Below, in pieces: positions 24,929 through 64,000 of a stretch of 64,000 nt of DNA. Source of the stretch: Chrysophaeum taylorii (lineage: Eukaryota > Sar > Pelagophyceae > Pelagomonadales > Pelagomonadaceae); assembly GCA_029834535.1 (NCBI GenBank), contig JAQMWT010000316.1, positions 310,001-374,000 on the forward strand, read 5' to 3'. Below the pieces are notes generated by a model that ran no database searches, had not been told where the DNA came from, and worked only from the letters and a program-made list of their open reading frames with translations. Numbering within the stretch: position 1 is the first letter of the stretch; each line of letters opens with the position of its first letter. The position numbers were made by a program, and so were the translations under genes.

Positions 24929-24936
24929 TGTTTGTT

Positions 24937-24984
<48 letters not shown>
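24929..24984. repeat. (TTTG)n(TCTG)n microsatellite
   Basis: About 56 bp of TTTG then TCTG repeats. It joins the fixed sequence CTACTAATCGACAGATG on the left to a truncated non-LTR copy on the right, and corresponds to that family's insertion target and tail. Confidence 0.9.
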
Positions 24985-24985
<1 letters not shown>

Positions 24986-25222
24986 TTAAATGTCGACTGC
25001 TAAGAGGGGGGGGTGTGTGGGGAGCATGAAGGATGTGGGTGGGTTTGTGGGGTATGAGGGATGTGCCTGACGGGCGGAAATAAGTACGCGGGACCTAGTC
25101 GGGGTCATCGCCGAGGCGTGGGGCAGGCGAAGAGAGGACGGGCCCCGCCCGTAGGTCGTACGCATGCTGCCGCCGGACGTATGTGCGACGAAGGGTGACG
25201 TCCTGCTGGGATCGGGGCTGTC
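24985..25222 (-). mobile_element. non-LTR 3' fragment R2
   Basis: Antisense copy of the GACA-tailed family, extending to the segment that in the 36.0 kb copy encodes the protein C-terminus (reverse of RRTYVRRQ ... LRAGPVLSSP). Its 5' junction abuts CTGTCTGTCCCTCGATTT, so it sits in the microsatellite of Helitron-type unit A. Confidence 0.75.
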
Positions 25223-25224
25223 TG

Positions 25225-33783: not shown

Positions 33784-34030
33784 AACTAACTAACTAACTT
33801 CAGACCTCTCCCGAGCATGGGAGCCAGGCCGGACCGGCAGAGCCGGTACGGAATCACAGAGGAAAATCACGCAGTTGGGGCAGAGGCGAGGGACGAGGAC
33901 GGACTTGTTGATGGTGTACCGCCACTGCGCGCGGTCTTATGCGAGGTCGTGCAAAAGCGTCGCAGGCCGCGGACGTGTTGGTCCACGAACAATCGACCTG
34001 TCCGTCGCGTTCTGCCCAACCGAGCGAACC
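33784..34030 (-). mobile_element. LINE 3' fragment inside unit B
   Basis: TAACTAACTAACTAAC tail, the CAGACCTCTCCCGAGC hairpin region and the end of the LINE protein in reverse. It interrupts the CCGCTAACCTTTGAGTTTAC block that is continuous in units A, C, D, E and F. No clean target duplication is visible. Confidence 0.7.
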
Positions 34031-34731
34031 CGTTCACTCTAAAAACCCCAGTAAGTTCACTTGGTCCCAGTATGTTCACCTGGTCACTAAGTTCACCTAG
34101 TCCCAATCTCAAACCTCAGTAAGTTCACCTGCTCCCAGTAAGTTCACCTACAGTGCGCTTGTAGACGCCGGGAGGGGGGCTTATCGGTATTGCGCAGCAC
34201 GTGTGGGGTAGGGTGGAGTCGTCGACTCAGAAGAGCATATCCTCGGGGTTGCCGATCGACAGAGAGCCACGTAGAGCTGGATGTGACAGAAGACGGGCTA
34301 GGGCGAGAGGACGCCGACCTCGCGAGGCGTCTGGGCCTGGCTCTTGTTGATCGTTTGGCGTCGGCGGGCCTTAAGGGATACAGGTTGGAGGAGCCTCGGT
34401 GACACAACACGATCGATCATGTATCTGGTACCGTTGCAGTGGCCGTGCGACGGGTCAAGGTTGCGAAGACTTTAAGCTCGCGATCAAAGTCAGCATGCCG
34501 TTAGTTGTCAGGGAGTTGAAAACTCGACTGTCAAGAGCGAGGCGTCGTCTTCCGACCCAACCTAGTCGGCCGAAAAGAACTCCGACGCCTCGTCTCCGGG
34601 AAAAAAAGGCCGCGGTCATGCGCGCGTTGTCAGCATCGACAACATCGTTTCGACGGGGCGTGAGAATGGCGCGCTGAAAGAGGCGCCGCGGGTCGTGGAA
34701 ATAGTCTGCGAAGTCGCCGTAGACGGCTTGG

Positions 34732-34834
34732 AGGATCAATGTCTGTCTTTAAATGTCGACTGCTAAGAGGGGGGTGTGTGTGGGGAGCATGGAGGATGTG
34801 GGTGGGTTCATGATGTGGGTAGGATCAATGTCTG
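34732..34834 (-). mobile_element. non-LTR tail copy R3 with 14-bp target duplication
   Basis: The insert 34746-34820 is flanked by AGGATCAATGTCTG at 34732-34745 and 34821-34834. It is inserted just upstream of the helicase fragment of unit B, at the same nucleotide position used by the copy at 52243-52288 in unit E. Confidence 0.85.
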
Positions 34835-34873
34835 GCTCGCAGGCCTAAATCATCCTTACCCTAAATCGAGGGA

Positions 34874-34997
34874 CCCCGACTAGGTCCCGCGTACTTCTCT
34901 CCGCCCGTCAGGCACATCCCTCATACCCCACAAACCCACCCACATCCTTCACGCTCCCCACACACACCCCCCTCTTAGCAGTCGACATTTAAAGACA
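34874..34997 (+). mobile_element. non-LTR 3' fragment R4
   Basis: Sense copy beginning within CCCCGACTAGGTCCCGCG and ending GTCGACATTTAAAGACA, directly between the end of unit B and the terminus of unit C. Confidence 0.75.
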
Positions 34998-36001
34998 ACA
35001 AGTGCAGGCCAGTAAGTTCGCCAGTAAGTTCACATACTCCCAATCTCTAACCCCAGTAAGTTCACCTGGTCCCAGTAAGTTCACCTAGTCCCAATCTCTA
35101 ACCCCAGTAAGTTCGGCGTAAGCCCACTCCTGCTCACATCCACTCACCCCTCTCCTTTGAACTCGTCCCTCTCACCCTCGCCAATCCAAGCTGCTTTGAT
35201 CCGCACACGCCGCTAACCTTTGAGTTTACTCTAAAAAACCCAGTAAGTTCACACTTGGTCTCAGTAAGTTCACCTGGTCACTAAGTTCACCTAGTCCCAA
35301 TCTCTAACCTCCGTAAGTTCACCTGGTTCCAAAAAAGTAAGTTCACCTGGTCCCAGTAAGTTAACCTATAGTGCGCGTGTAGACGCTGGGAGGGGGCTTG
35401 TCGGTATTGCGCAGCACGTGTGGAGTAGGGTGGAGTCGTCGACCAAGAAGAGGATATCCTCGGGGTTGCCGATCGACAGAGAGCCACGTAGAGCTGGACG
35501 TGGCAGAAGACGGGCTTCGCCAAGAGGACGCCGACCTCGCGGGGCGTCTGGCCCTGGCTCTTGGTGATCGTTTGGCGTCGGCGGGCCTTAAGGGATACAG
35601 GTTGGAGGAGCCTCGGTGACACGACACGATCGATCATGTATCTGGTACCGTTGCAGTGGCCGTGCGACGGGTCGAGGTTGCGAAGACTTTAAGCTCGCGA
35701 TCAAAGTCAGCATGCCGTTGGTTGTCAGGGAGTTGAAAACTCGACTGTAAAGAGCGAGGCGTCGTCTTCCGACCCAACCTAGTCGGCCGAAAAGAACTCC
35801 GACGCCTCGTCTCCAGGAAAAAAAGGCCGCGGTCATGCGCGCGTTGTCAGCATCGACAACATCGTTTCGACGGGGCGTGAGAATGGCGCGCTGAAAGAGC
35901 CGCCGCGGGTCGTGGAAACAGTCTGCGAGGTCGCCGTAGACGGCTTGGAGGATCAATGCCTGGCTCGCTGGCCTACCTGATCCTTACCCTAAATCGAGGG
36001 A
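34998..36001 (-). mobile_element. Helitron-type unit C
   Basis: Terminus ACAAGTGCAGG at 34998, minisatellite of AAGTTCACC repeats to about 35370, reverse helicase fragment 35372-35959, and AAATCGAGGGACA at the far end. Same truncation point and frameshifts as the other units. Confidence 0.75.
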
Positions 36002-43793: not shown

Positions 43794-46700
43794 ATGGATC
43801 CGCCTGCTGCTGCGCCTGCCCCTGGTTTAACGCAATTCACAGGCGCCGGCCAAGAGGTGGAGGTAGGACCATTGCCGCACCTCGACGGGAGTTTTCTGGG
43901 TCTCGCCGAGACCGGCAATGCGGCGGAGCTCAAAACTTGGGTCGAAAACAAACTTGGCTGGACGTGGCGTGGGGAGATTCTAGGGCCGAGAGCGGCGAGT
44001 ATGACGAAAATTTCGAGCGAACTGCTCCCTGACAAGGCACTGCCTGCTGGCTTTTACCTCGTCACTGTGAATCCAACCGGCACCCGCTTGTTCGGGCAAG
44101 AGTACCTATTCGACAGTCTTGAAGGACTCGAACGTTGCAAGTGGACGGTCGACTCGGAGAACGTGCTGCACGGGCAGGAGGTGGATGTGGAGCGGCGGTT
44201 CGTCACACCTGCGACCTCGACCAATCTCGGCGACAAAATTGCAGATTTGGCGCCGCCTGGATTAACTGGTAGCTTGGTGAGCCGGCCGGATTCGTTGGCC
44301 AAAAGACACTGGAATGACCATAAGAAGAGAATCCACTTGCTCACGATCTCGGTCAGTTACAAGCTCAACGAAAAATCTCAGGAGCCTGACTCTGTGGACG
44401 CCTCACTCGTCGGACCCATTTATGAGTCTGCCGTCGCGCCTGCTTCTGTTGGTCGTAACGCCTTCGGCCCGAATACCGTTCTCACTATCCCTGGCCCCGT
44501 TGCCGCAGGCGATACGGCTGGCTCCAGCGCTGCACCAAGCATCTTGGAACCGTCACCCTTCTCAACCGCCCGCCTCGGAGCCACCGCCGTAGGCGGTCAA
44601 CGGGATTTCGCCGCCGACCGCAGTACCTCGCGTCGCTTCCCTGAAAATGTAGATACATTCGAAGATGATGAGGCGCCAGAGGTTTTCGAAGGCGCAGGCA
44701 CTCGTCGACTACGCGATACCCAAGAAGACTGTTCCCCCGATTTGGAGAAAAGACAGGGTCCGACACGAGGGATTAGCATAAGAAAGAACGTTCACCCTAC
44801 GACGACAACAATGGCACCGGGCGGAGGCGTCGGGGAACGCACTCGCAGCCAGATGCGGATCTTGCTCATTCATTTTTGCAGCCGTAATGCGGAGCCTCTT
44901 GAACTACAGCGGGAAGTCGACGAAATCAAAAAGGAATTAATCCAGACCACTGAAGATGTCACCTACAACCTCCGCAAGCTCGACGAGGTCGGGGGGATAA
45001 CCCTGCGCAAACTTGGAAAAATCCTACAGAAATCCACGCAAAAAGGTGTGTATTATGACTATATCCAGTTCTCTGGGCACGGACATGCGAATCCTTGGAC
45101 TACTGTTACGTTTGGACTCGATTCATGCACTGATGACAACGGATATTCGGACGAACAGCAAGTCTCAATTGAGGGGCTGTCATGCTTCTTAGCGAAATAC
45201 CAGAGCGATACCGAGGACTGTCTTCGAGGCGTTTTCTTGAACTGTTGCTTTTCTTTGAAGCAAGCAAAATCGCTTTGCGACATCGGGAAAGTACCGTTTA
45301 CAGTGGGCAGCAACGATAAAATCGAAGACAAGGTCGCAATCCGTTTTGCCAGTGCTCTCTGGGGGTTTGTTGCGGGGGGATCTACTTTTGATGACGCGTT
45401 CGAGCGTGCCTGCAACGAATTGAAAGGAGCTGGGAACGATGTTCCGTACCGACTCGTCGGACCGACTACCGACACGGAGTTGCTCGAGCAACGCAAGCAC
45501 GACTCGCGCGAGCGGGCCTCCCATCCATGGATGGATAAGGGGCTTATCAGGGCCGAGTACGAGCGTGAACGCGACAAGGACGCAACACCGGTGAAAGTTG
45601 ACCTTGAGCTACGATCATACCAAACCGAAACCCTCGAGCGGTGCCGGAAGCAGAACAGTCTCCTCGTTATGCCCACGGGCGCCGGAAAGTCAGCGGTCGC
45701 ATTTACGCTCATGAGAGATTTTGCGCGCGATCCTAATCCCAGCGGTCTAAGGGTGGTGGGACAGAAAGTGGCGTTCCTGACGCAAACGGTGCCCCTGATG
45801 TTCCAGCAAGCTCGGGCGTGCGAACAATTCACACAACTTGACGTCGGAAAGTATTGCGGAGACGTCATGAATTGTGCTAGATGGCAGAAAGAAGACAATT
45901 ACGGCAAACAGCAGGCTGTCTTCTTTACCGCTGGACTGTTCTATGAACTTCTGCAGCGTCACCGTATCACGCTTGATCTGTTCTCGCTACTCGTGATTGA
46001 CGAGGCGCACCACTGCAAAAAAGAACACGTGTACAACAAAATCATGCGTGATTTTTACTTCACTCTTGATCCTTGGCTGCGACCGCACATCATGGGCCTT
46101 TCCGCGACGCCTGCAGATGCTAAGTCTCTTGATGTGAATGTCCGAAAGGTTTTCGAAGTATGCGCTAAGCTCGGAAACTCGGTGATTGTCACGCCCGAAG
46201 ACCACAACGAGGATCTCGAGCAGGCATGTCACACGCCAGAAACCAACGTGCGCGTTATTCATGCGTCAGAAGACGAAGCATATCTCGAGAGCATCGTACT
46301 CAACTACGTTGAAAAGTTGCGTGAGATATTGGCCAAGCTCAGGTGCCCGTACCTGAAGGACCTCCTCCCTGACGAGCAGCTAAAGTCAATCCAGGGATGG
46401 ATTGATTGTGGACCACCGTGCGCGACTTTTGCAAATCTTGACGATTGTCCACCAGTATGCAAATTTGTTCTGGACCACATTGCACATGTGGTCGAGGAAT
46501 ATTCGAAATATGAAAATCTCGGCGCAGGCGGTATTTTGAAGGCGATGAAACAGTGTATCGACACCTTCCTCCTCAAGCTACCGACCGTCTCCCAAGAAGC
46601 ATCGGACTCTGACCAGCTCAATTTTTTGTTGGTTTCACTGGATGATGTCGACGAGGATCTCGCCATGTACTTACACAAAGGACGCTTTGACGTCGTGGAA

Positions 46701-48140
46701 GAGGCTACGTCTAGCAAGTTTAGAGCTCTTCGCGACCTCTTGTCGGAGCGACTTGCCGAGTTCAACGAATCTGATAGGATACTCATTTTTGTGAGAATGC
46801 GCTCCACTTGCAAAGCATTGAGGGTGCTGATTAACGATTGGCTTCGCACCACCAATATCCCGCGCAAGTGTGGCTACATACTCGGTCACACGCGGTCAAC
46901 CCCCGGCAGCTCGTTATCATCAAAGGTTGAGGGAATGGGTGCGCATGAGCAACAGAGGATCGTGACTCGCTTTAGGGATCATGGCGACATCCATATACTT
47001 GTAGCGACCAGCGTGTGCGAGGAAGGTATCGACGTTGGGCGCTGCCGTCTCGTCGTTCGGTATGACCCGCCCATGAACGCGATCTCGATGCTTCAATCAA
47101 GAGGCCGCGCGCGCCATTACGCAGGCGAGATGGTGATACTGACGCGACCGGAGGAGAACGGCGAGCGCATCCTGAAGGAATACCGCTTCAAAGAAGAGCA
47201 AATGACCGAGGCTTGTCGCTTGGTAGCTCGCAGCGCGAAGGACGCGCGTGGTGGTCGCCAGTCGAAGTCGCGTCATTTCCTCCTCGAAGATGCAAAGGAC
47301 ATGCTTCACAGCTTCTGCAAAATGGCCAATTGCAACGAAAGTCCAAGATATTCGACTTGTCAGGACTTGGATGCCTCGCCGTTCTCGCTTGGTAAGACGT
47401 TTATTGCGACAGTGACGATGCCGCACGTCCCGGGTCTTCCTGAGGACTTGTCCGAGTTGGAGGCGACCGAGTCTAGGGATACCAAAGACAGTGCAGAGGA
47501 TATTGCAGCGTATGAGCTCTGTGTCAAACTTCACGAACATGAATTGCTCGGCCACATTCCTCCGGGAAAGAGGTACCTTACAAAATTACATGGCAGCCAC
47601 AAGACCGCATCTCCGGGTGACGATGGCGTTTTGATGAAACTGAACACGTTAAAGCAGAAATTGGGCCAAGATCTCGCGTGGGAACCCGCGGAGAGTGACG
47701 CTGCTGGCTTTGTTGTCGTCCTGCGCTTTGCCGACAGGGAATGGAAGGGCTGTGGCGCTACAAAGCAGGTCGCAAAGCAGCACGCGGCCAACAAGGCCCT
47801 CCAAGAACTGGGAGACCATGCCAGTGCCGTCCAAAAGTTGGGAGGCCCTGTCCAGACGACTTCCAAAGACCCTCCTACTGTGCTCCGTGAGATCGCTCAG
47901 TCGAACCAAAATGCTCGCCAGAAGCTTAACGAAATTGCCACAAAACTTGGCTTTAAATGTACCTTGAAAGAAACTGAGAACAGCAAAGTCCCGAACTTCG
48001 AGTTTGTCGTCCATGGGCCCGACGGCGCCCAACTCGGAGACCGTGGTACCGGCACAAGCAAGAACAATGCTAAGGAAAAAGCTGCCGAGAATGCAGTCAC
48101 GGCCCTGCTGGCCGACCATGCACGGGCGTTTTCGATGTGA
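43794..48140 (+). CDS. CHAT/caspase-fold protease fused to Dicer/RIG-I-type helicase and dsRBDs
   Basis: A 1448-residue single-exon protein; the ATG at 43794 is used because the frame upstream has no other ATG. Residues 1-190: unrecognised domain, shared with the second copy (WRGEILGPRA, LLPDKALPAGFYLVTVNP, RIHLLTISVSY). 191-350: low-complexity linker. 354-545: CHAT-type caspase fold, starting MRILLIHF with an LELQREVDEI helix, then YDYIQFSGHGH with His429 and GVFLNCCFS with Cys485 at the positions of the catalytic dyad, and ALWGFVAGGSTFDDAFERA. 605-1140: DExH helicase with MPTGAGKS (626-633), DEAH (736-739), LSATP, a long helical insert about 800-980 as in RIG-I/Dicer, ATSVCEEGIDVGRC and QSRGRAR (1101-1107). 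About 1180-1255: Dicer-dimerisation-like. 1278-1340 and 1362-1439: two dsRBDs. No PAZ, RNase III, CARD or RIG-I C-terminal domain. Likely role: dsRNA recognition that triggers proteolysis, as antiviral or transposon defence; this role is inferred. Confidence 0.85.
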   Translation: MDPPAAAPAPGLTQFTGAGQEVEVGPLPHLDGSFLGLAETGNAAELKTWVENKLGWTWRGEILGPRAASMTKISSELLPDKALPAGFYLVTVNPTGTRLFGQEYLFDSLEGLERCKWTVDSENVLHGQEVDVERRFVTPATSTNLGDKIADLAPPGLTGSLVSRPDSLAKRHWNDHKKRIHLLTISVSYKLNEKSQEPDSVDASLVGPIYESAVAPASVGRNAFGPNTVLTIPGPVAAGDTAGSSAAPSILEPSPFSTARLGATAVGGQRDFAADRSTSRRFPENVDTFEDDEAPEVFEGAGTRRLRDTQEDCSPDLEKRQGPTRGISIRKNVHPTTTTMAPGGGVGERTRSQMRILLIHFCSRNAEPLELQREVDEIKKELIQTTEDVTYNLRKLDEVGGITLRKLGKILQKSTQKGVYYDYIQFSGHGHANPWTTVTFGLDSCTDDNGYSDEQQVSIEGLSCFLAKYQSDTEDCLRGVFLNCCFSLKQAKSLCDIGKVPFTVGSNDKIEDKVAIRFASALWGFVAGGSTFDDAFERACNELKGAGNDVPYRLVGPTTDTELLEQRKHDSRERASHPWMDKGLIRAEYERERDKDATPVKVDLELRSYQTETLERCRKQNSLLVMPTGAGKSAVAFTLMRDFARDPNPSGLRVVGQKVAFLTQTVPLMFQQARACEQFTQLDVGKYCGDVMNCARWQKEDNYGKQQAVFFTAGLFYELLQRHRITLDLFSLLVIDEAHHCKKEHVYNKIMRDFYFTLDPWLRPHIMGLSATPADAKSLDVNVRKVFEVCAKLGNSVIVTPEDHNEDLEQACHTPETNVRVIHASEDEAYLESIVLNYVEKLREILAKLRCPYLKDLLPDEQLKSIQGWIDCGPPCATFANLDDCPPVCKFVLDHIAHVVEEYSKYENLGAGGILKAMKQCIDTFLLKLPTVSQEASDSDQLNFLLVSLDDVDEDLAMYLHKGRFDVVEEATSSKFRALRDLLSERLAEFNESDRILIFVRMRSTCKALRVLINDWLRTTNIPRKCGYILGHTRSTPGSSLSSKVEGMGAHEQQRIVTRFRDHGDIHILVATSVCEEGIDVGRCRLVVRYDPPMNAISMLQSRGRARHYAGEMVILTRPEENGERILKEYRFKEEQMTEACRLVARSAKDARGGRQSKSRHFLLEDAKDMLHSFCKMANCNESPRYSTCQDLDASPFSLGKTFIATVTMPHVPGLPEDLSELEATESRDTKDSAEDIAAYELCVKLHEHELLGHIPPGKRYLTKLHGSHKTASPGDDGVLMKLNTLKQKLGQDLAWEPAESDAAGFVVVLRFADREWKGCGATKQVAKQHAANKALQELGDHASAVQKLGGPVQTTSKDPPTVLREIAQSNQNARQKLNEIATKLGFKCTLKETENSKVPNFEFVVHGPDGAQLGDRGTGTSKNNAKEKAAENAVTALLADHARAFSM

Positions 48141-50011
48141 GTTTTATATTAGCATTTTTATTTACTGTTGTTGTGTATTTCATACCAGCAAATTCGTATT
48201 AATGTTGATGTCGCGATTATGTTACTGCGCTCTTACAGCAACCAGAGTGACACGCGCTTCGATTGTACATGTACACCGTCACTCCCCGGACCCATTTCAA
48301 AAACACGGGCAACATACACCGTATATGTCCTCGCCGGATCACACGCGATGGATAATGAGAGGACAATTGTGGTGTGATCAGAGCTGCTTCTTATTTACTA
48401 TTGTGCATATTGCGCGGCTCCAGCCATGGTAATTGGGTCGGAATAACCACCCAATATGACGATAAAAAAAGTACTATTTACCACGTAGCCCCCTCCGCCA
48501 CACGGTACTCAGCACTCAGCGCCTGGAACCGCACATCCCTCCTCATGAGCATTCTGCTCTCAAAAAGACACATCTGAGACAGGCGGCTCACTTCATTTGT
48601 CGTGCCACCTCCCCAAGTCGTGGTTTACGTAATTGAGGCGAGTCGCTCCCTCTCGAATGCGTTGCAATGGAGCAGCGGCGTCTGTTGATGGAAGCGATGC
48701 GCAACCACATATGTGGTCAACCCAAGCTATGCTTTGCGCAAGCAGCTAAAAGAGTGATTCTGACCGTACGGTCAGAAGTTCGAAGATGCGATACGTCGCT
48801 GTGGTAGCGAACATGAGCCTTTCTCGTGAGCCGCCTTCTGGGAAACTCGACAAAGGGAGGCGTGCGGCCGCATCCATGCCATGTGCGACCGCATCCAGGC
48901 ATCCAAATCCGCTATAAAATTCACCGAAAACTCAGAATGATAAACCACATGGGCACAAAAAGCCGATACTGCGCCAAAAAGGAGCATCAGCAGAGGCGAC
49001 AACGACGGCAGCAACAAGTGTTTTCGCCACAGCTATCATTGTTGTCATACTCGCAGCAGCCCACACATTTTGTCAGCAGCAACTGCCATATCCGGCGCCC
49101 CGGCAAATGTCACATCCTGCATAGGTGCAGCAGCAGCGGCAGGAGCAAAAACAATAACAACAACATTGTGATCACTTATACTGCATTGTCGGATTTGATT
49201 CATTATAAGTGTCAAGAAGCATGGAATGCTATTATTTATGCCCCACGTTCTTCGAAAGGATTTGTTGTTTCAATATGTCGTTGGTTACCACGGCTATGCC
49301 ACCAGGCCCGATCAGATATCATCGGATCTAGCTGCGGTCAGTACGCGAAGTGTCATGACACTACACAGCTTCGAAAAAGAATCGGAGTAGGTGGAACCAT
49401 TTGATCGCCTCCCATTCACCGATCAATCTGAGGATTTTACCGCGCTGGAGGAGATTGCCTAAAAAAAAGCCCGAGGATCTGATGAGTCAGTTCAACTTGT
49501 ATCAGTTTGCAGCATGCGTAGGACTTACTAAAGTAAAGAGGGGAACCCATCGATTCAGAGCAAAAAAGAGTCAATGGTGATATTGTAGCGCAAGTGCAAG
49601 AGGCGACTTTCGTACGGTTTGAACTGTGGTGCGCGTGCCATATGGCAACACTTAGCATACCGATGCAGCAAAAACTCCTTTGTATGGCGAAGTGTACAGT
49701 TGCTGCGCCAATGAATTTTGATTTTTCTCGACGACATGTTTTGTTGTTCGTGGTATGATACTTAATGCTAGTTGCAGTACGCCGGCTGCTGGTAGTTGTA
49801 CGGGGGCGCCGTCACTTCTGTCCACATCCAAAAACTACATTAAACTTAGCCACGAGCTCACGGTAGAGCCATGCTGATAGTTCTGTGTCAATTCTTCACA
49901 AAAGAGGCTTCCATCTGGTTTTATCTGTTTGAGCCAATGCCTAAATCAAAGGGGGTTCGCCTGTTCCAGGTAAGTGAGTAATAAGTACGCATTCATTATC
50001 AATAAGTACGC
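48141..50011. other. downstream region, no supported gene
   Basis: AT-richer than the flanks. Frames at 48826-49404 (Gln/Asn/Ser-rich) and 49437-49737 lack domains. A GCGGCCGCATCCATGCCATG / GCGACCGCATCCAGGCATC direct repeat lies near 48867-48903, and TAAGTACGCATTCATTATCA is partly repeated at 49982-50010 beside the terminus of unit D. Confidence 0.35.
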
Positions 50012-51026
50012 ACAAGTGCAGGCCAGTAAGTTCACCTAGTCCCAATCTCTAACCCCAGTAAGTTCACGGTCCCGTTAAGTTCACCTAGTCCCAATCTCTA
50101 ACCCCAGTAAAATCGGCGTAAACCCAATCTCTAACCCCAGTAAGTTCGGCGTAAACCCGCACCCACTCACCCCACTCTCCTTCGAGCTCGTCGCTCTCAC
50201 CCCTGCCAATCTAAGCTGCTTTGATCCGCACACGCCGCTAAGCTTTGAGTTTACTCTAAAAGCCCCAGTAAGTTCACACTTGGTCTCAGTAAGTTCACCT
50301 GGTCACTAAGTTCACCTAGTCCCAATCTCTAACCTCCGTAAGTTCACCTGGTTCCAGTAAGTTCACCTGGTCCCAGTAAGTTAACCTATAGTGCGCGTGT
50401 AGACGCCGGGAGGGGTCTTATCGGTATTGCGCAGCACGTGTGGAGTAGGGTGGAGTCGTCGACCCAGATGAGTATATCCTCGGGGTTGCCGATCGACAGA
50501 GAGCCACGTAGAGCTGGACGTGGCAGAAGACGGGCTTGGGCAAGAGGACGCCGACCTTGCGGGGCGTCTGCCTCTGGCTCTTGTTGATCGTTTGGCGTCG
50601 GTGGGGCTTGAGGGATACAGGTTGGAGGAGCCTCGGTGACAACGACACGATCGATCACGTATCTGGTACCGTTGCAGTGGCCGTGCGACGGGTCGAGGTT
50701 GCGAAGACTTTAAACTCGCGATCAAAGTCAGCATGCCGTTGGTTGTCAGGGAGTTCAAAACTCGACTCTTGAGAGCGAGGCGTCGTCTTCCGACCCAACC
50801 TAGTCTGGCGAAAAGAACTCCGACGCCTCGTCTCCGGGAAAAAAAGGCCGCGGTCATGCGCGCGTTGTCAGCATCGACAACATCGTTTCGACGGGGCGTG
50901 AGAATGGCGCGCTGAAAGAGCCGCCGCGGGTCGTGGAAATAGTCTGCGAGATCGCCGTAGACGGCTTGGAGGATTAATGGCTGGCTGGCTCGTGGGCCTA
51001 CCTGATCCTTACCCTAGATCGAGGGA
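50012..51026 (-). mobile_element. Helitron-type unit D
   Basis: Terminus ACAAGTGCAGG at 50012, AAGTTCACC minisatellite to about 50390, reverse helicase fragment 50391-50983, then TACCCTAGATCGAGGGA. Nearly identical to unit E over the helicase part, including a shared CCCAGATGAGTATATCC variant, so D and E are sister copies. Confidence 0.75.
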
Positions 51027-51297
51027 CAGACAAACAAACAGCAGGACGTCACCCTTCGACGACGTCGCACATACGTCCGGCGGCAGCATACGTACGACCT
51101 ACGGGCGGGGCCCGTCCTCTCTTCGCCTGCCCCACGCCTCGGCGATGACCCCGACTAGGTCCCGCGTACTTATCTCCGCCCGTCAGGCACATCCCTCATA
51201 CCCCACAAACCCACCCACATCCTTCATGCTCCCCACACACACCCCCCTCTTAGCAGTCGACATTTAAAGACAGACAAACAAACATCTGTCGATTAGT
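51027..51297 (+). mobile_element. non-LTR 3' fragment R10 in the microsatellite of unit D
   Basis: CAGACAAACAAACAG (51027-51041), then a truncated sense copy starting CAGGACGTCACCCTTCG (51042-51271), then CAGACAAACAAACATCTGTC. The same CAGACAAACAAACA string lies on both sides, as expected for insertion into the repeat with duplication. Confidence 0.8.
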
Positions 51298-51308
51298 AGT
51301 TAGGACTC

Positions 51309-52300
51309 ACAAGTGCAGGCCAGTAAGTTCACCTAGTCCCAATCTCTAACCCCAGTAAGTTCACCTAATCCCAGTAAGTTTCATATAAGTTCACCTGGTC
51401 AGTAAGTTCACCTAGTTCACACCAACTCCTTTGAGCTCGTCGCTCTCGCCTCCGCCAATCGAAGCTGCTTTGATCCGCACGCGCCGCCAACCTTTGAGTT
51501 TACTCTAAAAACCCTTTACTCTAAAAGCCCCAGTATGTTCTCCTGGTCCCAGTTTCACCTGGTCACTCAGCTCACCTAGTCCCAATCTCCAACCCCAGTA
51601 AGTTCACCTGGTCCCAGTAAGTTCACCTGGTCCCAGTAAGTTAACCTATAGTGCGCGTGTAGACGCCGGGAGGGGTCTTATCGGTATTGCGCAGCACGTG
51701 TGGAGTAGGGTGGAGTCGTCGACCCAGATGAGTATATCCTCGGGGTTGCCGATCGACAGAGAGCCACGTAGAGCTGGACGTGGCAGAAGACGGGCTTGGG
51801 CAAGAGGACGCCGACCTTGCGGGGCGTCTGCCTCTGGCTCTTGTTGATCGTTTGGCGTCGGTGGGGCTTGAGGGATACAGGTTGGAGGAGCCTCGGTGAC
51901 AACGACACGATCGATCATGTATCTGGTACCGTTGCAGTGGCCGTGCGACGGGTCGAGGTTGCGAAGACTTTAAGCTCGCGATCAAAGTCAGCATGCCGTT
52001 GGTTGTCAGGGAGTTGAAAACTCTACTGTAAAGAGCGAGGCGTCGTCTTCCGACCCAGCCTAGTCAGCCGAAAAGAACTCCGACGCCTCGTCTTCGGGAA
52101 AAAAAGGCCGCGGTCATGCGCGCGTTGTCAGCATCGACAACATCGTTTCGACGGGCGTGAGAATGGCGCGCTGAAAGAGCCGCCGCGGCTCGTGGAAATA
52201 GTCTGCGAGGTCGCCGTAGACGGCTTGGAGGATCACTGTCTGTCTTTAAATGTCGACTGCTAAGAGGGGGGGAGTGTGTGTGGGGAGCATCACTGTCTGG
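51309..52300 (-). mobile_element. Helitron-type unit E
   Basis: Terminus ACAAGTGCAGG at 51309, which directly abuts the TAGTAGTTAGGACTC end of the preceding unit. Reverse helicase fragment 51651-52238, interrupted just beyond by R11. Confidence 0.75.
52232..52299 (-). mobile_element. non-LTR tail copy R11 with 11-bp target duplication
   Basis: Only 46 bp long (52243-52288), flanked by ATCACTGTCTG at 52232-52242 and 52289-52299. Same insertion point as R3 in unit B. Confidence 0.85.
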
Positions 52301-53176: not shown

Positions 53177-53284
53177 TGGTACCAGGTGTTCAAGGCCGAA
53201 CGACCTGAGCTTGACTTCACGGACAACAGCGACTCCTCCTCGGCTTCAGTTCATTGCTACGTGTTCGGTTCGTTGTCGTCTATC

Positions 53285-56200
53285 ATGTCCTCGATCGAAA
53301 TTAAGGATAGCAAGCTTTCGCAAAAACTCGATGCTTTCAGTGGTGAGCGACATCTTTTTCACCAATGGACCCGGCGCCTGGAAAACATGATCATTTCCAC
53401 CGGTGATCGCATTATCTTGACCACTGACACTTGGACTAGCATTTCCGCTTCTGGCTGCTCTGAAGAAGAATTTGGTCTCAAGCAACAACGCTGGTACAGT
53501 GCACTCTTCATGGCACTACCAATGCATGATACTGATCGTGCGGATATCCGTGAAAACCGCGATATGAACTTCACGTGGCTTTACAAACGCATTACTGATG
53601 TTTACATGGGTCATGGAGATCGTGTCGCTCAGTCTGCAATTGCTTCACTGCATTCCTTGGTGTGCAACAACATCGATGAACTTGAGTCTTTTCTTCACAA
53701 GTTCATCACTGGTGTTCAAGTTGCTCGGCATCATCAAGATTTCCCTGACTCAAGTGCATTGCAGTTGCTTCAAACGAAAATCCCCGACTCGCTCTTGTCT
53801 AAGGATCTCATTGCACTTGATCCTAAATTGCGCACATATGATGGTTTCGTTGATCGCCTCCACAGTAAAGTTTTTGATTATCTTCAGACCATGTCTGTGC
53901 ACGTCCATGCTACGTTCCGTGAAAGTCCCCGTCATCGTGAACGTTCCAACTTTTATGGTCGCCATCCTTCTGAAAAGTATTTTCATCGCTTCAATGCTTT
54001 GCGCTCTCAACAACGTTCTAGCCCACGCCCCTCTTTTCGATCATCATTCCGTCACCCACCTTCATCTTCACGTGGTTTTCATCGCAAGCGCCAACGCCAT
54101 ACTGATCTTTGTCACTTTTGTGGTATTCCTGGTCATCACCAGAAAGATTGTCATAAGCGTCAGCGCTATTTGCTCTCACAAGCTACCGCCCGCCCACGGC
54201 ATCAACACCAATACCCACGTCGGTTGCATTCCCAATACCCACCTCGGTCCACTCCCCAATACCCACCTAGGCCCCATCCACCCTTCTACCAACACCATCT
54301 TTTCACCCCCAATCCACCCTTGCCACCATCTCAATCCTCTCCGCCGCTTCTTGCGTTGCCACCCTCCACCACACCCTCTGTCCCGCCTTCCACCGCTGTC
54401 ACCCTTCCTGACCCATCCCTTTCTGCACCCACCTACCCGTCCTACAATTTCCACCTTCTTTCCATCTCCCCCTCCATTCACCAAGTCCTTTCCTCCACCA
54501 ACGCCCTTACCGCTCTGCTCACCGCTCGTGAGCGCGACTACCTTCACAGCACCAACCTTCGTCTCGTTGTCTATGATACCGGCGCCAACGTCAGCCTTTT
54601 TAATTCTCCCGCTGGCTTCACGGACCTGGACAACACTCAACAGCATTCCATCACTTCTGCTATCGGCACTGGCTCTGTTTCCGGTTCTGGCACTGCTCAC
54701 TTAACGTTCCCTTCAATTGGTCCTCTTGACAATCGTGGTCTTCCTTCTCCTGCACCCACTCTTTCCGCCCCTCATGGTATACATGTCGCGTTTCCGCATA
54801 CCCTCATCTCTCCTGGCCTTGGTGACAAACGGATTCTTTCGGATCATTCCCTTGAACAAGTTGGTTACGATTGCCACACCATTCAGGCCGTTGATCCTGC
54901 TTATCCGCAACGTATTTTACGTCACCGTCAAACGCATCACGTTATTCCCCTGCTTCGTCGCTGTGGTCTTCTTTTGATCGTCTGTTGGATCGGCAATACG
55001 ACCGCTGCGCCCTACACGGACTACGTTTCACATTTTGTGGCATTTTCTTCTTCCCCTCGTGTCCATGATCCTTGTGCGTTTCCCGCTGTGTCTCAACGCA
55101 CTCAAATAACTTTCGATCTTTGGCATGCTCGTCTTGGTCATTATAGTCCTGCCTATCTTCGGCGTTTGTCTTCTCTTGCTGTTGGCGCACCGTTTTTCCC
55201 GAGCTCCGCGTCGCTTTCTTTTTGTCCTGCTTGTGCTCTCGGTAAAATGCATGCTGCGCATGTTGGCCAACGTAAAGCTCATGCTTCCACTTCGTCTCCT
55301 TCCTCCGAGCCTTTGTCTCGTCCACGTGCCGTTGCGCCCTACCTTATTATCCACGCCGATCTCATGTTTGCTGGCGTCCCATCCTACATATTTCACGATC
55401 GCGCGATCCTCACGTTTGTCGATGATCATACGCGCCGCCGCACGCGTTACTTTGCTCCACGACACGATGCCCTTACGAACGCTCGACAACTCGAACTTTT
55501 CTGTCTACCGTGGTTCGCCCATTCGGATATCGCGTTGCCCTCATCTACACCGATCGTGACCGCTCTCTTATGGGCCAATTCGAAACCTTCTGTCTGGGCA
55601 ACAATATTGCGCTTCGGCGCGCTCCGGCAGCACAGTCCAAAACTTCACAGGCTCACGCTTTTTCCGGTGTTGTGGAACGCTCTCATCGCGCAACCGCGGA
55701 TATTACTCGCACTCTTTTGGTACATGTGCACCGTCCACCTGATTTTTGGCGTTGGGCCATGGAAACGGCTGACTTCATCTCTGAGCGTATGCCAAATGCC
55801 TCTAATCCTGGATATATGACGCCATATGAAATGCTACACGAAACACTCCCGCGTGTCGATTTTCTTCGTGTTTGGAGCTGTCCTACTGCAATTCTCACTG
55901 GCGACAAATGGCCTACCAAAGCTATAACCGGTATCTTCATTGGGTATCCCTCTGCAGGCCCTATCGCATATTGCTTCAACTCCCCACAGGTCCTGTCATC
56001 CACACCTCGATTGATGTTGTTTTTGACGAAAATTTCGCTCTGCGTAAGTCACTGTCCACCCAACCCCTTCCTCCGTCTCAAGTGGATTCTCGTTTTCCTG
56101 ACTTGTTTTATTACGACCCTCGTCTATCTTCGGCCGTAGCCCCCATATCTTCTGTTTTTGATGCTCCGGAGCCGGCCTTATCGGGACTGATCACCCCAGA

Positions 56201-58506: not shown

Positions 58507-58634
58507 AGGGATTTGTTTGTCTTTAAATGTCGACTGCTAAGAGGGGGGTGTGTGTGGGGAGCATGAAGGATGTGGGTGGGTTTTTGGGGTATGAGGGATG
58601 TGCCTGACGGGCGGAGATAAGGGATTTGTTTGTC
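58507..58634 (-). mobile_element. non-LTR tail copy R14 with 15-bp target duplication
   Basis: The insert 58522-58619 is flanked by AGGGATTTGTTTGTC at 58507-58521 and 58620-58634. The right flank is the TTTGTTTGTCCCTCG site at the start of Helitron-type unit F. Confidence 0.85.
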
Positions 58635-59650
58635 CCTCGATTTAGGGTAAGGATCAGGTAGGCCCGCGAGCCAGACAGTGATCCTCCAAGCCGTCTACGG
58701 CGACCTCGCAGACTGTTTCCACGACCCGCGGCGACTCTTTCAGCGCGCCATTCTCACGCCCCGTCGAAACGATGTTGTCGATGCTGACAACGCGCGCATG
58801 AATGACCGCGGCCTTTTTTTCCTGGAGACGAGGCGTCGGAGTTCTTTTCGGCCGACTAGGTTGGGTCAGAAGACGACGCCTCGCTCTCAAGAGTCGAGTT
58901 TTGAACTCCCTGACAACCAACGGCATGCTGACTTTGATCGCGAGCTTAAAGTCTTCGCAACCTCGACCCGTCGCACGGCCACTGCAACGGTACCAGATAC
59001 ATGATCGATCGTGTCGTTGTCACCGAGGCTCCTCCAACCTGTATCCCTTAAGGCCCGCCGACGCCAAACGATCACCAAGAGCCAGTGCCAGACGCCCCGC
59101 GAGGTCGGCGTCCTCTTGGCGAAGCCCGTCTACTGTCACGTCCAGCTCTACTTGGCTCTCTGTCAATCGGCAACCTCGAGGATATCCTCTTCTGGGTCGA
59201 CGACTCCACCCTACCCCACACGTGCTGCGCAATACCGATAAGACCCCTCCCGGCGTCTACACGCGCACTATAGGTTAACTTACTGGGACCAGGTGAACTT
59301 ACTGCAACCAGGTGAACTTACTGGGGTTGGAGATTGGGATTAGGTGAACTTAGTGACCAGGTGAACTTACTGAGACCAAGTGTGAACTTACTGGGGCTTT
59401 TAGAGTAAACTCAAAGCTTAGCGGCGTGTGCGGATCAAAGCAGCTTAGATTGGCGGGGGTGAGAGCGACGAGCTCAAAGGAGAGTGGGTGTGGGTTTACG
59501 CCGATTACGCCGAACTTACTGGGGTTAGAGATTGGGTTTACGCCAAATTTGCTGGGGTTAGAGATTGGGACCAGGTGAACTTACTGGGACCAGATGAACT
59601 TACTGGGGTTAGAGATTGGGACTAGGTGAACTTACTGACCTGCACTTGTT
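58633..59650 (+). mobile_element. Helitron-type unit F
   Basis: Same unit as A: helicase fragment 58675-59277 (GDLADCFHDP, LFQRAILTPRRNDVVDADN, LRNLDPSHGHCNGTRYMIDR), then GGTGAACTTACTGG repeats, ending CTGACCTGCACTTGTT. An extra GAAT near 58800 adds to the frameshifts. The next gene starts 39 bp after its end. Confidence 0.75.
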
Positions 59651-59688
59651 TACTGCTAAACCCTTGAGCGTCTGTGTTAGACGCGTGT

Positions 59689-62600
59689 ATGTCCGCACCA
59701 GCGGCTGTGGCTGTTGCGGCGGCACCACCCGCGCCTGGTGTTGCGGCGCCAACCCAACCAGTCAGCGCCACCCCAAGCGCCGGCAATGAGTTGGAGGTAG
59801 TGCGAATGTCGCGTTACCAAGGATCCTTGCTTGAGCTCGCCGAGAAGGGCAACGCTGTCGAACTCAAACGTCGGATCGAAGACCAACTTGGTTGGAGGTG
59901 GCGTGGGGAAATTTTGGGACCGAGAGCGGACGGATTGAAGAAAATAACAAGCGATCTTCTCCCCAACAAGGCACTGCCTGGCGGCTTCTACCTTCTCACC
60001 GTGAATCCGGAGGGCACCCGCGTGTTCGGGCCCGAGTACCAATTCAACAGTCTCGAAGGACTTGCCCAATGCAAATGGATTGTCGGAACAGGGAACCAGC
60101 TGACGTCCCGTCGAACTCACGGACAGGAGGTGCATGTGGAGCAGCGGTACGTCACGCCTGGTAACTTGGTCTATCTTGGAGACGAAACTGAAACTGTGGC
60201 GCCCTTTGGATTTAGTGGCAGTTTGTGGAGCAGACCAGATTCGTTGGCTAGGCGACACTGGGAAGACCACGCGCAAAGAATCCACTTGCTCACGGTCTCA
60301 GTCAGCTTCAAGCACATCAAGAGAGCTGCTGCATCTGACGCTTTGCGTTCGAGACGTGCCAACGTGCCTGCCACCATCGCACCTGCGTTGCCCCCAGCAG
60401 GCGTCGGGCTTGACGCCGCTGGCTCCACGGTCGCGATCAACACCACCGACCCCATCGTTGCATCTGACGCCTGGAGGCTACCTGCTCCACTCGATGGCGA
60501 TTTCATTCCCGCGAGCGCTTCAATGTTGTCTGCAGACGCCGCACCCACTGACAATTCCACGGTCGCTGATTTCGGTCCGGCACCCACGATGTCGTCGTCT
60601 CTCTTCGAAATGTTTGGCGAACCTGATATGGTCATTGTAGGGAATCTCGGCGAGGAGGGCGGCGGCACTCGTCGACCGCGCGACGAATCAGAAGATCTTC
60701 CAAGGCAGGTGCAGAGACGACACAGGGGGGACAACAGGGATGTTTCCCGTACTACACGGGGAGGTAGCGTTGGTTCGGCGACAGGGGGGGGCAACAGGAA
60801 TGTTCCCCAGACGACACGAAGAGGCAGCGTTGGGAAGCATGGTCGCCAGACGCGGATCTTGCTCGTTCATTTTTTCAGAAGCGGTGCGCCACATCTCGAG
60901 ATACAGCGGGAAATTGAAGAAATCCGTGAGGAGCTTACCGCATTCACAAAAGGCGTCACCTACCATCTCTGCAAGTGCGAGCTCGAAGAGGTCGGTGGGA
61001 TAACCCTGCGCAAATTTGGGAATATACTACAAATGTCGGTGCGAAAAGGTGTGTATTATGACTATATCCAGTTCTCTGGGCACGGACATGCGAATCCTTG
61101 GACTACTCTTACGTTTGGACTCGATTCATGCACTGATGACAACGGATATTCGGACGAACAGCAAGTCTCAATTGAGGGGCTGTCATGCTTCTTAGCGAAA
61201 TACCAGAGCGATACCGAGGACTGTCTTCGAGGCGTTTTCTTGAACTGTTGCTTTTCTTTGAAGCAAGCAAAATCGCTTTGCGACATCGGGAACGTACCGT
61301 TTACAGTGGGCAGCAACGGTAAAATCGAAGACAAAGTCGCAATCCGTTTCGCCATTGCTCTCTGGGGGTTTGTTGCGGGGGGATCTACTTTTGATGACGC
61401 GTTCAAGCGTGCCTGCAACGAATTGAAAGCAGTTGGGAAATTGAAAGCAGTTGGGAACGATGTTCCGTACCGACTCGTCAGACCGACTACCGACACGGAG
61501 TTGCTCGAGCAACGCGAGTTTGAGTCGCGAGAGCGGACTTTGCTTCATTGGATGGACGATGGGTTTATCAGGGCCGAGTACGAGCGTGAACGCGACAAGG
61601 ACGCAACACCGGTGAAAGTTGACCTTGAGCTACGATCATACCAAACCGAAACCCTCGAGCGGTGCCGGAAGCAGAACAGTCTCCTCGTTATGCCCACGGG
61701 CGCCGGAAAGTCAGCGGTCGCATTTACGCTCATGAGAGATTTTGCGCGCGATCCTAATCCCAGCGGTCTAAGGGTGGTGGGACAGAAAGTGGCGTTCCTG
61801 ACGCAAACGGTGCCCCTGATGTTCCAGCAAGCTCGGGCGTGCGAACAATTCACACAACTTGACGTCGGAAAGTATTGCGGAGACGTCATGAATTGTGCTA
61901 GATGGCAGAAAGAAGACAATTACGGCAAACAGCAGGCTGTCTTCTTTACCGCTGGACTGTTCTATGAACTTCTGCAGCGTCACCGTATCACGCTTGATCT
62001 GTTCTCGCTACTCGTGATTGACGAGGCGCACCACTGCAAAAAAGAACACGTGTACAACAAAATCATGCGTGATTTTTACTTCACTCTTGATCCTTGGCTG
62101 CGACCGCACATCATGGGCCTTTCCGCGACGCCTGCAGATGCTAAGTCTCTTGATGTGAATGTCCGAAAGGTTTTCGAAGTATGCGCTAAGCTCGGAAACT
62201 CGGTGATTGTCACGCCCGAAGACCACAACGAGGATCTCGAGCAGGCATGTCACACGCCAGAAACCAACGTGCGCGTTATTCATGCGTCAGAAGACGAAGC
62301 GTATCTCGAGAGCATCGTACTCAACTACGTTGGAAAATTGCGTGAGATATTGGCCAAGCTCAGGTGTCCATACCTGAAGGACCTCCTCCCTGACGAGCAG
62401 CTCAAGTCGATGCAGGGATGGATTGATTGTGGACCACCGTGCGCGACTTTCGCAAGTCTTGACGATTGTCCACGAGTATGCAAATTTGTTCTGGACCACA
62501 TTGCACATGTGGTCGAGGAATATTCGAAATATGAAAATCTCGGCGCAGGCGGTATTTTGAAGGCGATGAAACAGTGTATCGACACCTTCCTCCTCAAGCT

Positions 62601-64000
62601 ACCGACCGTCTCCCAAGAAGCACCGGACTCTGACCAGCTCAATTTTTTGTTGGTTTCACTGGATGATGTCGACGAGGATCTCGCCATGTACTTACACAAA
62701 GGACGCTTTGACGTCGTGGAAGAGGCTACGTCTAGCAAGTTTAGAGCTCTTCGCGACCTCTTGTCGGAGCGACTTGCCGAGTTCAACGAATCTGATAGGA
62801 TGCTCATTTTTGTGAGAATGCGCTCCACTTGCAAAGCATTGAGGGTGCTGATTAACGATTGGCTTCGCACCACCAATATCCCGCGCAAGTGTGGCTACAT
62901 ACTCGGTCACACGCGGTCAACCCCCGGCAGCTCGTTATCATCAAAGGTTGAGGGAATGGATGCGCATGAGCAACAGAGGATCGTGACTCGCTTTAGGGAT
63001 CATGGCGACATCCATATACTTGTAGCGACCAGCGTGTGCGAGGAAGGTATCGACGTTGGGCGCTGCCGTCTCGTCGTTCGGTATGACCCGCCCATGAACG
63101 CGATCTCGATGCTTCAATCAAGAGGCCGCGCGCGCCATTACGCAGGCGAGATGGTGATACTGACGCGACCGGAGGAGAACGGCGAGCGCATCCTGAAGGA
63201 ATACCGCTTCAAAGAAGAGCAAATGACCGAGGCTTGTCGCTTGGTAGCTCGCAGCGCGAAGGACGCGCGTGGTGGTCGCCAGTCGAAGTCGCGTCATTTC
63301 CTCCTCGAAGATGCAAAGGACATGCTTCACAGCTTCTGCAAAATGGCCAATTGCAACGAAAGTCCAAGATATTCGACTTGTCAGGACTTGGATGCCTCGC
63401 CGTTCTCGCTTGGTAAGACGTTTATTGCGACAGTGACGATGCCGCACGTCCCGGGTCTTCCTGAGGACTTGTCCGAGTTGGAGGCGACCGAGTCTAGGGA
63501 TACCAAAGACAGTGCAGAGGATATTGCAGCGTATGAGCTCTGTGTCAAACTGCACGAACATGAATTGCTCGGCCACGTTCCTCCGGGAAAGAGATACCTC
63601 GCAAAATTACATGGCAGCCACAAGACCGCATCTGCGCTGCCACCGAATAAAGGCGACGATAGCGTTTTGATGAAACTGAACACTCTAAAGCAGAAATTGG
63701 GCCAAGATCTCGCGTGGGAATCCGCGGAGAGTGATGCTGCTGGCTGGATTGTCGTCCTTCGCTTTGCAGGCAGGGCATGGCGCGGCTGTGGCGCGACGAA
63801 GCAGACCGCAAAGCAGCACGCGGCCAACGAGGCCCTCCAAGAGTTGGGAGACCCTGTCCAGGCGACTTCCAAAGACGCGACTGCAGTGCTCCGCGAGATC
63901 GCTCAGTCGAACCAAAATGCTCGCCAGAAGCTTAACGAAATTGCCACAAAACTTGGCTTTAAGTGTACATTGAAAGAAACTGAGAACAGCAAAGTCCCGA
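59689..64000 (+). CDS. second CHAT protease - Dicer/RIG-I-type helicase - dsRBD gene, 3' end outside the window
   Basis: Paralogue of 43794-48140. The frame is open from the ATG at 59689 to the last base, at least 1437 codons. The N-terminal domain aligns with the first copy (LGWRWRGEILGPRADGLKKI, LLPNKALPGGFYLLTVNP) but differs at about half the positions. The linker is different and holds a duplicated segment with TTRGGSVG and TTRRGSVG (60721-60840). The CHAT dyad is kept: His465 in QFSGHGH and Cys521 in FLNCCFS. An 18-bp tandem duplication near 61430-61456 adds KLKAVG before the helicase. Helicase motifs MPTGAGKS, DEAH, SATP and QSRGRAR are all present and almost identical in DNA to copy 1. 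In the dsRBD region it differs by a 12-bp insertion and a 30-bp deletion. The second dsRBD has begun when the window ends. Same inferred role: dsRNA-triggered protease. Confidence 0.85.
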   Translation, partial: MSAPAAVAVAAAPPAPGVAAPTQPVSATPSAGNELEVVRMSRYQGSLLELAEKGNAVELKRRIEDQLGWRWRGEILGPRADGLKKITSDLLPNKALPGGFYLLTVNPEGTRVFGPEYQFNSLEGLAQCKWIVGTGNQLTSRRTHGQEVHVEQRYVTPGNLVYLGDETETVAPFGFSGSLWSRPDSLARRHWEDHAQRIHLLTVSVSFKHIKRAAASDALRSRRANVPATIAPALPPAGVGLDAAGSTVAINTTDPIVASDAWRLPAPLDGDFIPASASMLSADAAPTDNSTVADFGPAPTMSSSLFEMFGEPDMVIVGNLGEEGGGTRRPRDESEDLPRQVQRRHRGDNRDVSRTTRGGSVGSATGGGNRNVPQTTRRGSVGKHGRQTRILLVHFFRSGAPHLEIQREIEEIREELTAFTKGVTYHLCKCELEEVGGITLRKFGNILQMSVRKGVYYDYIQFSGHGHANPWTTLTFGLDSCTDDNGYSDEQQVSIEGLSCFLAKYQSDTEDCLRGVFLNCCFSLKQAKSLCDIGNVPFTVGSNGKIEDKVAIRFAIALWGFVAGGSTFDDAFKRACNELKAVGKLKAVGNDVPYRLVRPTTDTELLEQREFESRERTLLHWMDDGFIRAEYERERDKDATPVKVDLELRSYQTETLERCRKQNSLLVMPTGAGKSAVAFTLMRDFARDPNPSGLRVVGQKVAFLTQTVPLMFQQARACEQFTQLDVGKYCGDVMNCARWQKEDNYGKQQAVFFTAGLFYELLQRHRITLDLFSLLVIDEAHHCKKEHVYNKIMRDFYFTLDPWLRPHIMGLSATPADAKSLDVNVRKVFEVCAKLGNSVIVTPEDHNEDLEQACHTPETNVRVIHASEDEAYLESIVLNYVGKLREILAKLRCPYLKDLLPDEQLKSMQGWIDCGPPCATFASLDDCPRVCKFVLDHIAHVVEEYSKYENLGAGGILKAMKQCIDTFLLKLPTVSQEAPDSDQLNFLLVSLDDVDEDLAMYLHKGRFDVVEEATSSKFRALRDLLSERLAEFNESDRMLIFVRMRSTCKALRVLINDWLRTTNIPRKCGYILGHTRSTPGSSLSSKVEGMDAHEQQRIVTRFRDHGDIHILVATSVCEEGIDVGRCRLVVRYDPPMNAISMLQSRGRARHYAGEMVILTRPEENGERILKEYRFKEEQMTEACRLVARSAKDARGGRQSKSRHFLLEDAKDMLHSFCKMANCNESPRYSTCQDLDASPFSLGKTFIATVTMPHVPGLPEDLSELEATESRDTKDSAEDIAAYELCVKLHEHELLGHVPPGKRYLAKLHGSHKTASALPPNKGDDSVLMKLNTLKQKLGQDLAWESAESDAAGWIVVLRFAGRAWRGCGATKQTAKQHAANEALQELGDPVQATSKDATAVLREIAQSNQNARQKLNEIATKLGFKCTLKETENSKVP

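Follow-up and report, generated by a model that had tools for sequence, protein, structure and literature searches.

The idea of a caspase-fold domain placed ahead of a double-stranded RNA (dsRNA) helicase is already in print under other words. As the accessible text of PMC8998645 describes it, LanRLR6 of the brachiopod Lingula anatina is a RIG-I-like receptor that carries an N-terminal caspase catalytic domain, CASc, in one chain, and that text reports the domain from one species only. The portions of PMC10197012 available to us treat the fungal NLRs that bear a CHAT domain as contracted pathways, in which the caspase is physically part of the receptor, and, together with those of PMC12881547, describe a fungal gasdermin activated by a CHAT protease. 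In the available part of PMC11417357, SAVED-CHAT, whose structure is 8tl0, is listed among the type III CRISPR proteases and Craspase, or TPR-CHAT, is named as a CRISPR RNA-guided caspase. Here we describe a gene, A1, from the alga Chrysophaeum taylorii, which lies in a 64,000-nucleotide stretch (contig JAQMWT010000316.1, positions 310,001-374,000, forward strand) that we call the window and in which our coordinates are given. A1 and two further genes of the same genome encode what their sequences predict to be a fusion of a Dicer-like dsRNA-recognition unit behind a CHAT domain with a His/Cys dyad.

LanRLR6 and the algal protein are alike in having a caspase-fold domain N-terminal to a dsRNA helicase of the RIG-I/Dicer group in a single chain. 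As far as the available description of LanRLR6 goes, however, it is an animal protein with a metazoan caspase domain rather than CHAT, and it was placed by a tree of the RIG-I C-terminal domain, whereas the algal chain has a Dicer helicase, a Dicer-dimerisation domain and dsRNA-binding domains (dsRBDs). The gasdermin-controlling proteases of fungi, CHAT-NLR and CHAT-TPR, also hold CHAT and a sensor in one chain, but in the parts of those reports open to us their sensor is an NLR or a set of repeats, whereas the algal sensor is a dsRNA helicase. Dicer itself shares with the fusion the helicase, the Dicer-dimerisation domain and the dsRBD in the same order, but the fusion has no PAZ or RNase III match and has CHAT in front. 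SAVED-CHAT and Craspase, so far as their partial source describes them, resemble the fusion in tying a CHAT protease to nucleic-acid recognition. In the type III CRISPR CHAT effectors this recognition runs through CRISPR RNA held in other chains or through cyclic oligoadenylate; in the fusion, by contrast, the dsRNA helicase is within the same chain as CHAT, and the domain-library scans found no Cas7-type, TPR or SAVED match in A1.

Since the caspase-bearing RIG-I-like receptor of Lingula anatina (PMC8998645) and the fungal CHAT-NLRs (PMC10197012) are in print, as the accessible text of both indicates, the word "undescribed", used in an earlier note on this DNA, was too strong. The combination of CHAT, Dicer helicase, Dicer_dimer and dsRBD was not found in our literature text searches, which left most subscription journals uncovered, and the accessible part of PMC7159879 contains none of the whole words CHAT, RIG-I or Dicer. 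Fusions between a sensor and a caspase-fold protease are a known kind; what we would call new here is that both the sensor and the host are unusual.

The fusion gene and its copies

The coding sequence of A1 lies in a single frame of 1481 codons from stop to stop, and at the base composition of the window the probability of a given frame remaining open over this length is about 1.5e-25. The earlier note had described one open frame running across CHAT and helicase, and this is what we found (Table 1). In the order predicted from its sequence the chain holds an N-terminal region, CHAT, a Dicer/RIG-I-type helicase, a Dicer-dimerisation domain and two dsRBDs, without a nuclease. For the N-terminal region no Pfam profile exceeded its cut-off and the best PDB match reached only E=0.37.

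We searched the alga's own genome (70.8 Mb in 697 contigs) with the whole A1 protein. This search, which covered a single genome whose completeness is not established, was blind to introns, although pieces of the intron-bearing gene B were still found. It returned 17 places, 15 of which were copies of the fusion that reduce to three distinct genes, A1, A2 and B, while the other two, both on contig C21, matched less strongly and represent a different helicase (E about 6e-6). The earlier note had missed both A2, which lies in the same window, and B, which lies on another contig.

A2 is a tandem paralogue 16 kb downstream of A1, to which it is 79% identical across the part inside the window. It matches A1 as far as contig position 374140 (window 64140), and its open frame of 1493 amino acids (aa) reaches the C-terminal dsRBD. 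For the first 194 residues of A1, A1 and A2 were the only matches in the genome, and across the N-terminal region the two proteins share 47% aa identity.

Gene B, on contig C163, is more distant, with 38% identity to A1 overall and 36% in the CHAT region. One stop-free frame of B matches aa 334-690 of A1, from CHAT through helicase motif I. After removal of three GT-AG introns, predicted by eye with A1 as the guide, B encodes a protein of 1214 aa; CHAT, the helicase and Dicer_dimer are followed in it by a final dsRBD-like stretch, which can be aligned with the last one of A1.

A count of six genes was considered and rejected, because the places on C377, on a second stretch of C163 and on C168 are near-copies, leaving three distinct genes. 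C377 differs from A2 by no substitutions and nine gap openings over 4.9 kb and has in-frame stops; we regard it as a duplicated end of a contig, altered by indels. The further stretch on C163, which is inverted, is 98.95% identical to B, and C168 is 99.14% identical. B and a neighbouring open reading frame (ORF), sialidase-like by our reading, form a long inverted repeat on C163 that occurs again at the start of C168 (L020, L021, L022), either a palindromic duplication or an assembly fold-back. The possibility that A1 is an assembly joint or a chance ORF was also rejected, since A2 and the diverged B carry the fusion as well.

The CHAT domain

When the single A1 sequence was searched against the PDB, a CHAT protein ranked first (E=0.045). 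A profile built from the three distinct fusion genes then matched 8tl0, a "CHAT domain-containing protein", with a whole-sequence E of 1.8e-7 and 6.5e-6 for the best stretch. Four matches were listed and the other three had E-values of at least 0.67, leaving 8tl0 as the sole solved relative below E=0.5, and its alignment with the profile pairs the GHG and N-x-C motifs. A control profile from the reversed sequences gave no PDB match at E<=5.

Bacterial plasmids pointed the same way. A tblastn search of 72,556 plasmid records with the whole A1 protein matched four of them, one in the helicase and three in the CHAT region; the latter were two from Nostoc and one from Calothrix (E 7e-6 to 7e-7), and all three encoded proteins score above the Pfam CHAT cut-off over the segment that was matched. 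When the CHAT region of gene B was the query, six plasmid records were matched at E<=0.1, five annotated as CHAT domain-containing and one as TIR domain-containing, and the two of these that were scanned both exceeded the Pfam CHAT cut-off. These plasmid proteins, from Nostoc, Calothrix, Agrobacterium and Haliscomenobacter, are the nearest sequence relatives found outside the alga. In the five that were scanned CHAT stands with DUF900, with pentapeptide repeats, with a metallophosphoesterase, with a weak iSTAND match or with nothing known, and unlike the fusion none has a Dicer-type helicase. On the Agrobacterium plasmid NZ_CP039902.1 (53007-61324, L126) three CHAT genes cluster with one TIR gene and one caspase-family gene, a winged-helix gene lying between them, and the arrangement resembles the conflict or defence islands of bacteria.

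CHAT proteins of the alga itself gave a further comparison. Profile against profile, the fusion CHAT matched five same-genome CHAT proteins with a probability of 97.6 over 83 columns, in the Cys half only, and a same-genome CHAT-NLR with a probability of 96.4 over 155 columns; the E-values of such pairwise profile comparisons differ in kind from database E-values. Ten CHAT domains, three from the fusion genes and the rest picked as relatives, were aligned; the Cys485 column is Cys in every row and the His429 column is His in nine, the only row without it being C419. Both residues are invariant in A1, A2 and B. The earlier note had placed the dyad at His429 in SGHGH and Cys485 in LNCC, exactly where we see it, and its caspase-fold CHAT domain is supported by the 8tl0 match, the empty reversed control and the bacterial CHAT proteins, if not by the Pfam profile in A1. 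On this sequence evidence A1 is a CHAT-domain protein in which the predicted His/Cys dyad has been kept.

The divergence between the tandem copies is very uneven. Synonymous divergence (dS) between A1 and A2 is 0.86 over aa 1-345; for the CHAT region it is 0.17, for the helicase 0.019 and for the first dsRBD 0.25, and in steps of 60 codons the DNA identity is 39-76% over aa 1-420 and 89-100% over aa 421-1260. The best kept part of the CHAT domain is aa 421-540, the active-site stretch. This pattern looks like gene conversion across the catalytic and helicase parts, with the N-terminus diverging freely; for this reason the dyad of A1 and that of A2 are not two independent pieces of evidence, whereas B does provide one.

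The sensor half and its genomic setting

Behind CHAT, Pfam placed ResIII, Helicase_C, Dicer_dimer and dsrm over their cut-offs in A1. Dicer_dimer, also known as DUF283, scored 35.6 bits against a cut-off of 23.7 and was over its cut-off in A2 and B as well, and both C-terminal dsRBDs of A1 passed dsrm when scanned singly. What we take to be helicase motifs I, Ia, II, III, IV, V and VI are all intact. The helicase halves are separated by about 145 residues, which by their position would correspond to the helical insert of Dicer and RIG-I helicases. With the single sequence, the nearest helicases were AncD1D2 (2.2e-55), whose name marks it as a reconstruction of an ancestral Dicer helicase, and Dicer homolog 1 (3.2e-40), followed by LGP2 and RIG-I; a profile of A1 and B ranked AncD1D2, Dicer homolog 1 and MDA5. 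A split between Dicer and RIG-I by helicase scores was dropped, as neither the single sequence nor the profile separated them cleanly.

The Pfam scan of A1 found no RNase III, PAZ, CARD or RIG-I C-terminal domain. The NCBIfam RNaseIII model reached 28.9 bits against a cut-off of 166, matching profile positions 147-218 only, over the last dsRBD. Since a Dicer-dimerisation domain and dsRBDs are present and there is no match to a RIG-I C-terminal domain, the sensor half looks Dicer-derived and not RIG-I-like. Judged by its predicted domains, A1 is nonetheless not a Dicer, as it has no RNase III match, and not a RIG-I-like receptor, as it matches neither the C-terminal domain nor CARD. The complete DExH helicase, the Dicer-dimerisation domain, the two dsRBDs and the lack of a nuclease had all been read correctly in the earlier note; its RIG-I/Dicer-type helicase holds as to type, with the Dicer side now preferred.

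The genome has 84 matches to light-harvesting proteins, as befits a photosynthetic eukaryote and in keeping with the algal origin that had been proposed; a search for phycobilisome linkers gave no match, hence no evidence for a red alga. Among silencing genes, the intron-blind profile search found no Piwi match (the control was positive in 1 of 14 genomes) and one RNase III match, a single domain in a 358-aa frame (control positive in 8 of 14). Since neither Argonaute nor Dicer was found in this search, and only that one-domain RNase III, canonical RNA interference was probably lost in this alga.

The Pfam CHAT model matched the genome at seven places (C84, C647, C419, C658, C25, C521 and C480). 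At C84 (L003 1420-3516, with the CHAT match at 132850-133368) CHAT is followed by an NLR-type STAND NTPase, with CHAT, nSTAND1, NACHT and NB-ARC over their cut-offs. Here a photosynthetic protist has a CHAT-NLR that resembles those of fungi, and that this genome encodes such a protein lends support to an immune role for the fusion. C25 and C521, the best CHAT matches in the genome, are TPR-type by our reading. At C647 (L004), C419 (L007/L026) and C658 (L006) we read a hydrophobic, probably membrane-spanning stretch ahead of a short CHAT, and C647 and C419 are alike in their C-terminal stretch. CHAT seems to have been joined to several kinds of sensor or anchor in this alga.

A viral origin was considered and set aside, as neither the whole protein nor the CHAT alignment found a relative when viral contigs were scanned. 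The helicase alignment matched at least 600 stretches of viral contigs, at least 107 of them encoding a relative, and among the 80 loci listed the best-segment identity was 23-31%. Phage records gave no match. Prokaryotic fusions were absent from two contig scans, a weak result, since the peptide patterns used were either strict or badly positioned.

Several other features of the window can be noted. A dispersed repeat of about 1 kb occurs in both orientations at 24900-26200, 34000-36000, 50000-52300 and 58600-59650; it flanks A1 on both sides and lies directly upstream of A2, and its longer copies are about 88-94% identical. Between A1 and A2 an ORF with a GAG-pre-integrase domain (53186-55819) is probably part of a retrotransposon. 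On the reverse strand, a 1400-aa ORF (14661-18863) has an ANF_receptor ligand-binding region and ephrin-receptor-like repeats, both over cut-off, which is the layout of an animal-like receptor, in an alga. Ordinary genes include a Glycosyltransferase 61 (62-1105, forward strand) and an ABC1-type kinase (9520-11100, reverse strand).

Table 1. Positions in the window of the two fusion genes A1 and A2 and of their parts.
Feature	Positions	Strand	Remarks
Gene A1, entire fusion ORF	43794..48140	+	ATG to TGA, 1448 aa, intron-free
A1 N-terminal region, aa 1-345	43794..44828	+	without known relatives, fast diverging
A1 CHAT caspase-fold protease domain (predicted), aa ~350-560	44841..45473	+	approximate borders
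A1 codon of predicted catalytic His429 (SGHG)	45078..45080	+	
A1 codon of predicted catalytic Cys485 (LNCC)	45246..45248	+	
A1 helicase core 1, ResIII/DEAD, aa 604-774	45603..46115	+	Pfam; motif I PTGAGKS, II DEAH, III SAT
A1 insert between helicase halves, ~aa 821-965	46254..46688	+	inferred from position
A1 helicase core 2, Helicase_C, aa 975-1106	46716..47111	+	Pfam; motifs IV-VI, VI ends at 47114
A1 Dicer_dimer, aa 1167-1253	47292..47552	+	Pfam, over cut-off
A1 first dsRBD, matched stretch	47706..47810	+	profile 31-66 of 66; 27.0 bits, cut-off 23
A1 second dsRBD, matched stretch	47916..48101	+	profile 2-64 of 66; 25.8 bits, cut-off 23
Gene A2, entire fusion as a tandem paralogue of A1	59674..64000	+	first ATG 59689; extends past window end
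A2 CHAT domain	60844..61491	+	approximate borders; both predicted catalytic residues kept
A2 helicase cores	61624..63132	+	Pfam, aa 651-1153 of listed frame

Possible roles and their alternatives

We infer that an immune role for a protease is the best-supported account of these features. Specifically A1, A2 and B probably form a family of algal dsRNA-sensing proteases that act in defence or cell death. The helicase and dsRBDs would grip dsRNA, such as viral replication intermediates or transposon transcripts, and ATP-driven closure of the helicase, or clustering on the dsRNA, would release the CHAT domains or bring them together; the active protease could then cleave one or more cellular proteins and so start a defence or cell-death response. 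This mechanism draws on the reported behaviour of the parts, namely the fungal CHAT proteases and their gasdermin, CHAT in NLRs, and SAVED-CHAT in type III CRISPR. The sensor half would probably no longer supply RNA interference, since the intron-blind search of the genome found no Argonaute or Dicer. Only tentatively do we go further and suggest that the algal lineage may have lost Argonaute and the Dicer nuclease and re-armed a Dicer sensor with a bacterial-type CHAT, giving a single-chain, dsRNA-activated death or defence protease and turning antiviral RNA sensing from the cutting of RNA to the cutting of protein; this is possible, but we would not count on it.

Several results weigh against a defence protease of this kind. 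CHAT went undetected in A1 by the Pfam, NCBIfam and PADLOC scans, none of the seven places found by the genome-wide Pfam CHAT search is within a fusion gene, and the CHAT region of B, which met the Pfam CHAT model in the expected register (E=0.0029), scored 17.5 bits, below the cut-off of 24. Between A1 and A2 dN/dS (NG86) is 0.58 in CHAT, indicating only modest constraint, and 0.29 in the helicase. The last dsRBD-like stretch of B reached 15.6 bits against the dsrm cut-off of 23. PAZ, RdRP and ArgoL1 had no match in the genome, but no control genome was positive for them; no gasdermin was found by Pfam profile either, which is weak as no control genome exceeded the cut-off.

Some of these points would suit a CHAT domain that is a non-catalytic scaffold or regulatory domain, the protein then being a dsRNA helicase used for example in RNA turnover or in displacing viral RNA. 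The empty Pfam CHAT scan of A1 and the dN/dS of its CHAT region fit such a role, as does the changed His column of C419, a CHAT-like protein of the same genome. We consider it unlikely, however, as His429 and Cys485 are kept not only in A1 and A2 but also in B, at 36% identity, and no part of the domain differs less between A1 and A2 than the active-site stretch, for which gene conversion may be another explanation. It is also improbable, in our view, that a real RNA-controlled protease has its role elsewhere than in defence against viruses or transposons, be it in stress, sex, allorecognition or normal RNA-dependent control. The fungal CHAT and NLR systems work in allorecognition, according to the available portions of PMC12881547 and PMC10197012, and the tandem copies have diverged rapidly in the N-terminal region and at the beginning of CHAT, both of which would agree with such a role; nothing decisive speaks against it, as a Dicer-type helicase and dsRBDs indicate a dsRNA ligand but not the source of the dsRNA.

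A role within RNA interference, as a Dicer partner or helicase cofactor whose protease trims another silencing protein, is suggested by the Dicer-type helicase, Dicer_dimer and dsRBDs. We give it little credence: the intron-blind search of the genome gave no Piwi match, its lone RNase III domain sits in a one-domain protein, and apart from the two weak C21 places everything found with the whole protein is a copy of the fusion. Finally, duplicated contigs with indels do occur in this genome and could raise the suspicion that an assembly or gene-model artefact has merged two genes, one for CHAT and one for the helicase. This is hardly credible for a single 1481-codon open frame in A1 with a second intact tandem copy in A2, and for the 38%-identical B, in which a frame runs unbroken from CHAT through helicase motif I.

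If A1, A2 and B are indeed dsRNA-sensing proteases acting in defence or cell death, they show that the sensor of Dicer can find a new use in which RNA interference has no part. Such proteins would unite Dicer-type dsRNA recognition and caspase-fold execution, immune branches that are usually separate, in parallel to the caspase-bearing RIG-I-like receptor of the brachiopod and the CHAT-NLRs of fungi, and they would provide a one-chain enzyme in which the coupling of dsRNA binding to proteolysis can be measured directly. For Chrysophaeum taylorii, where no Argonaute was found, they would offer an antiviral or genome-defence pathway.

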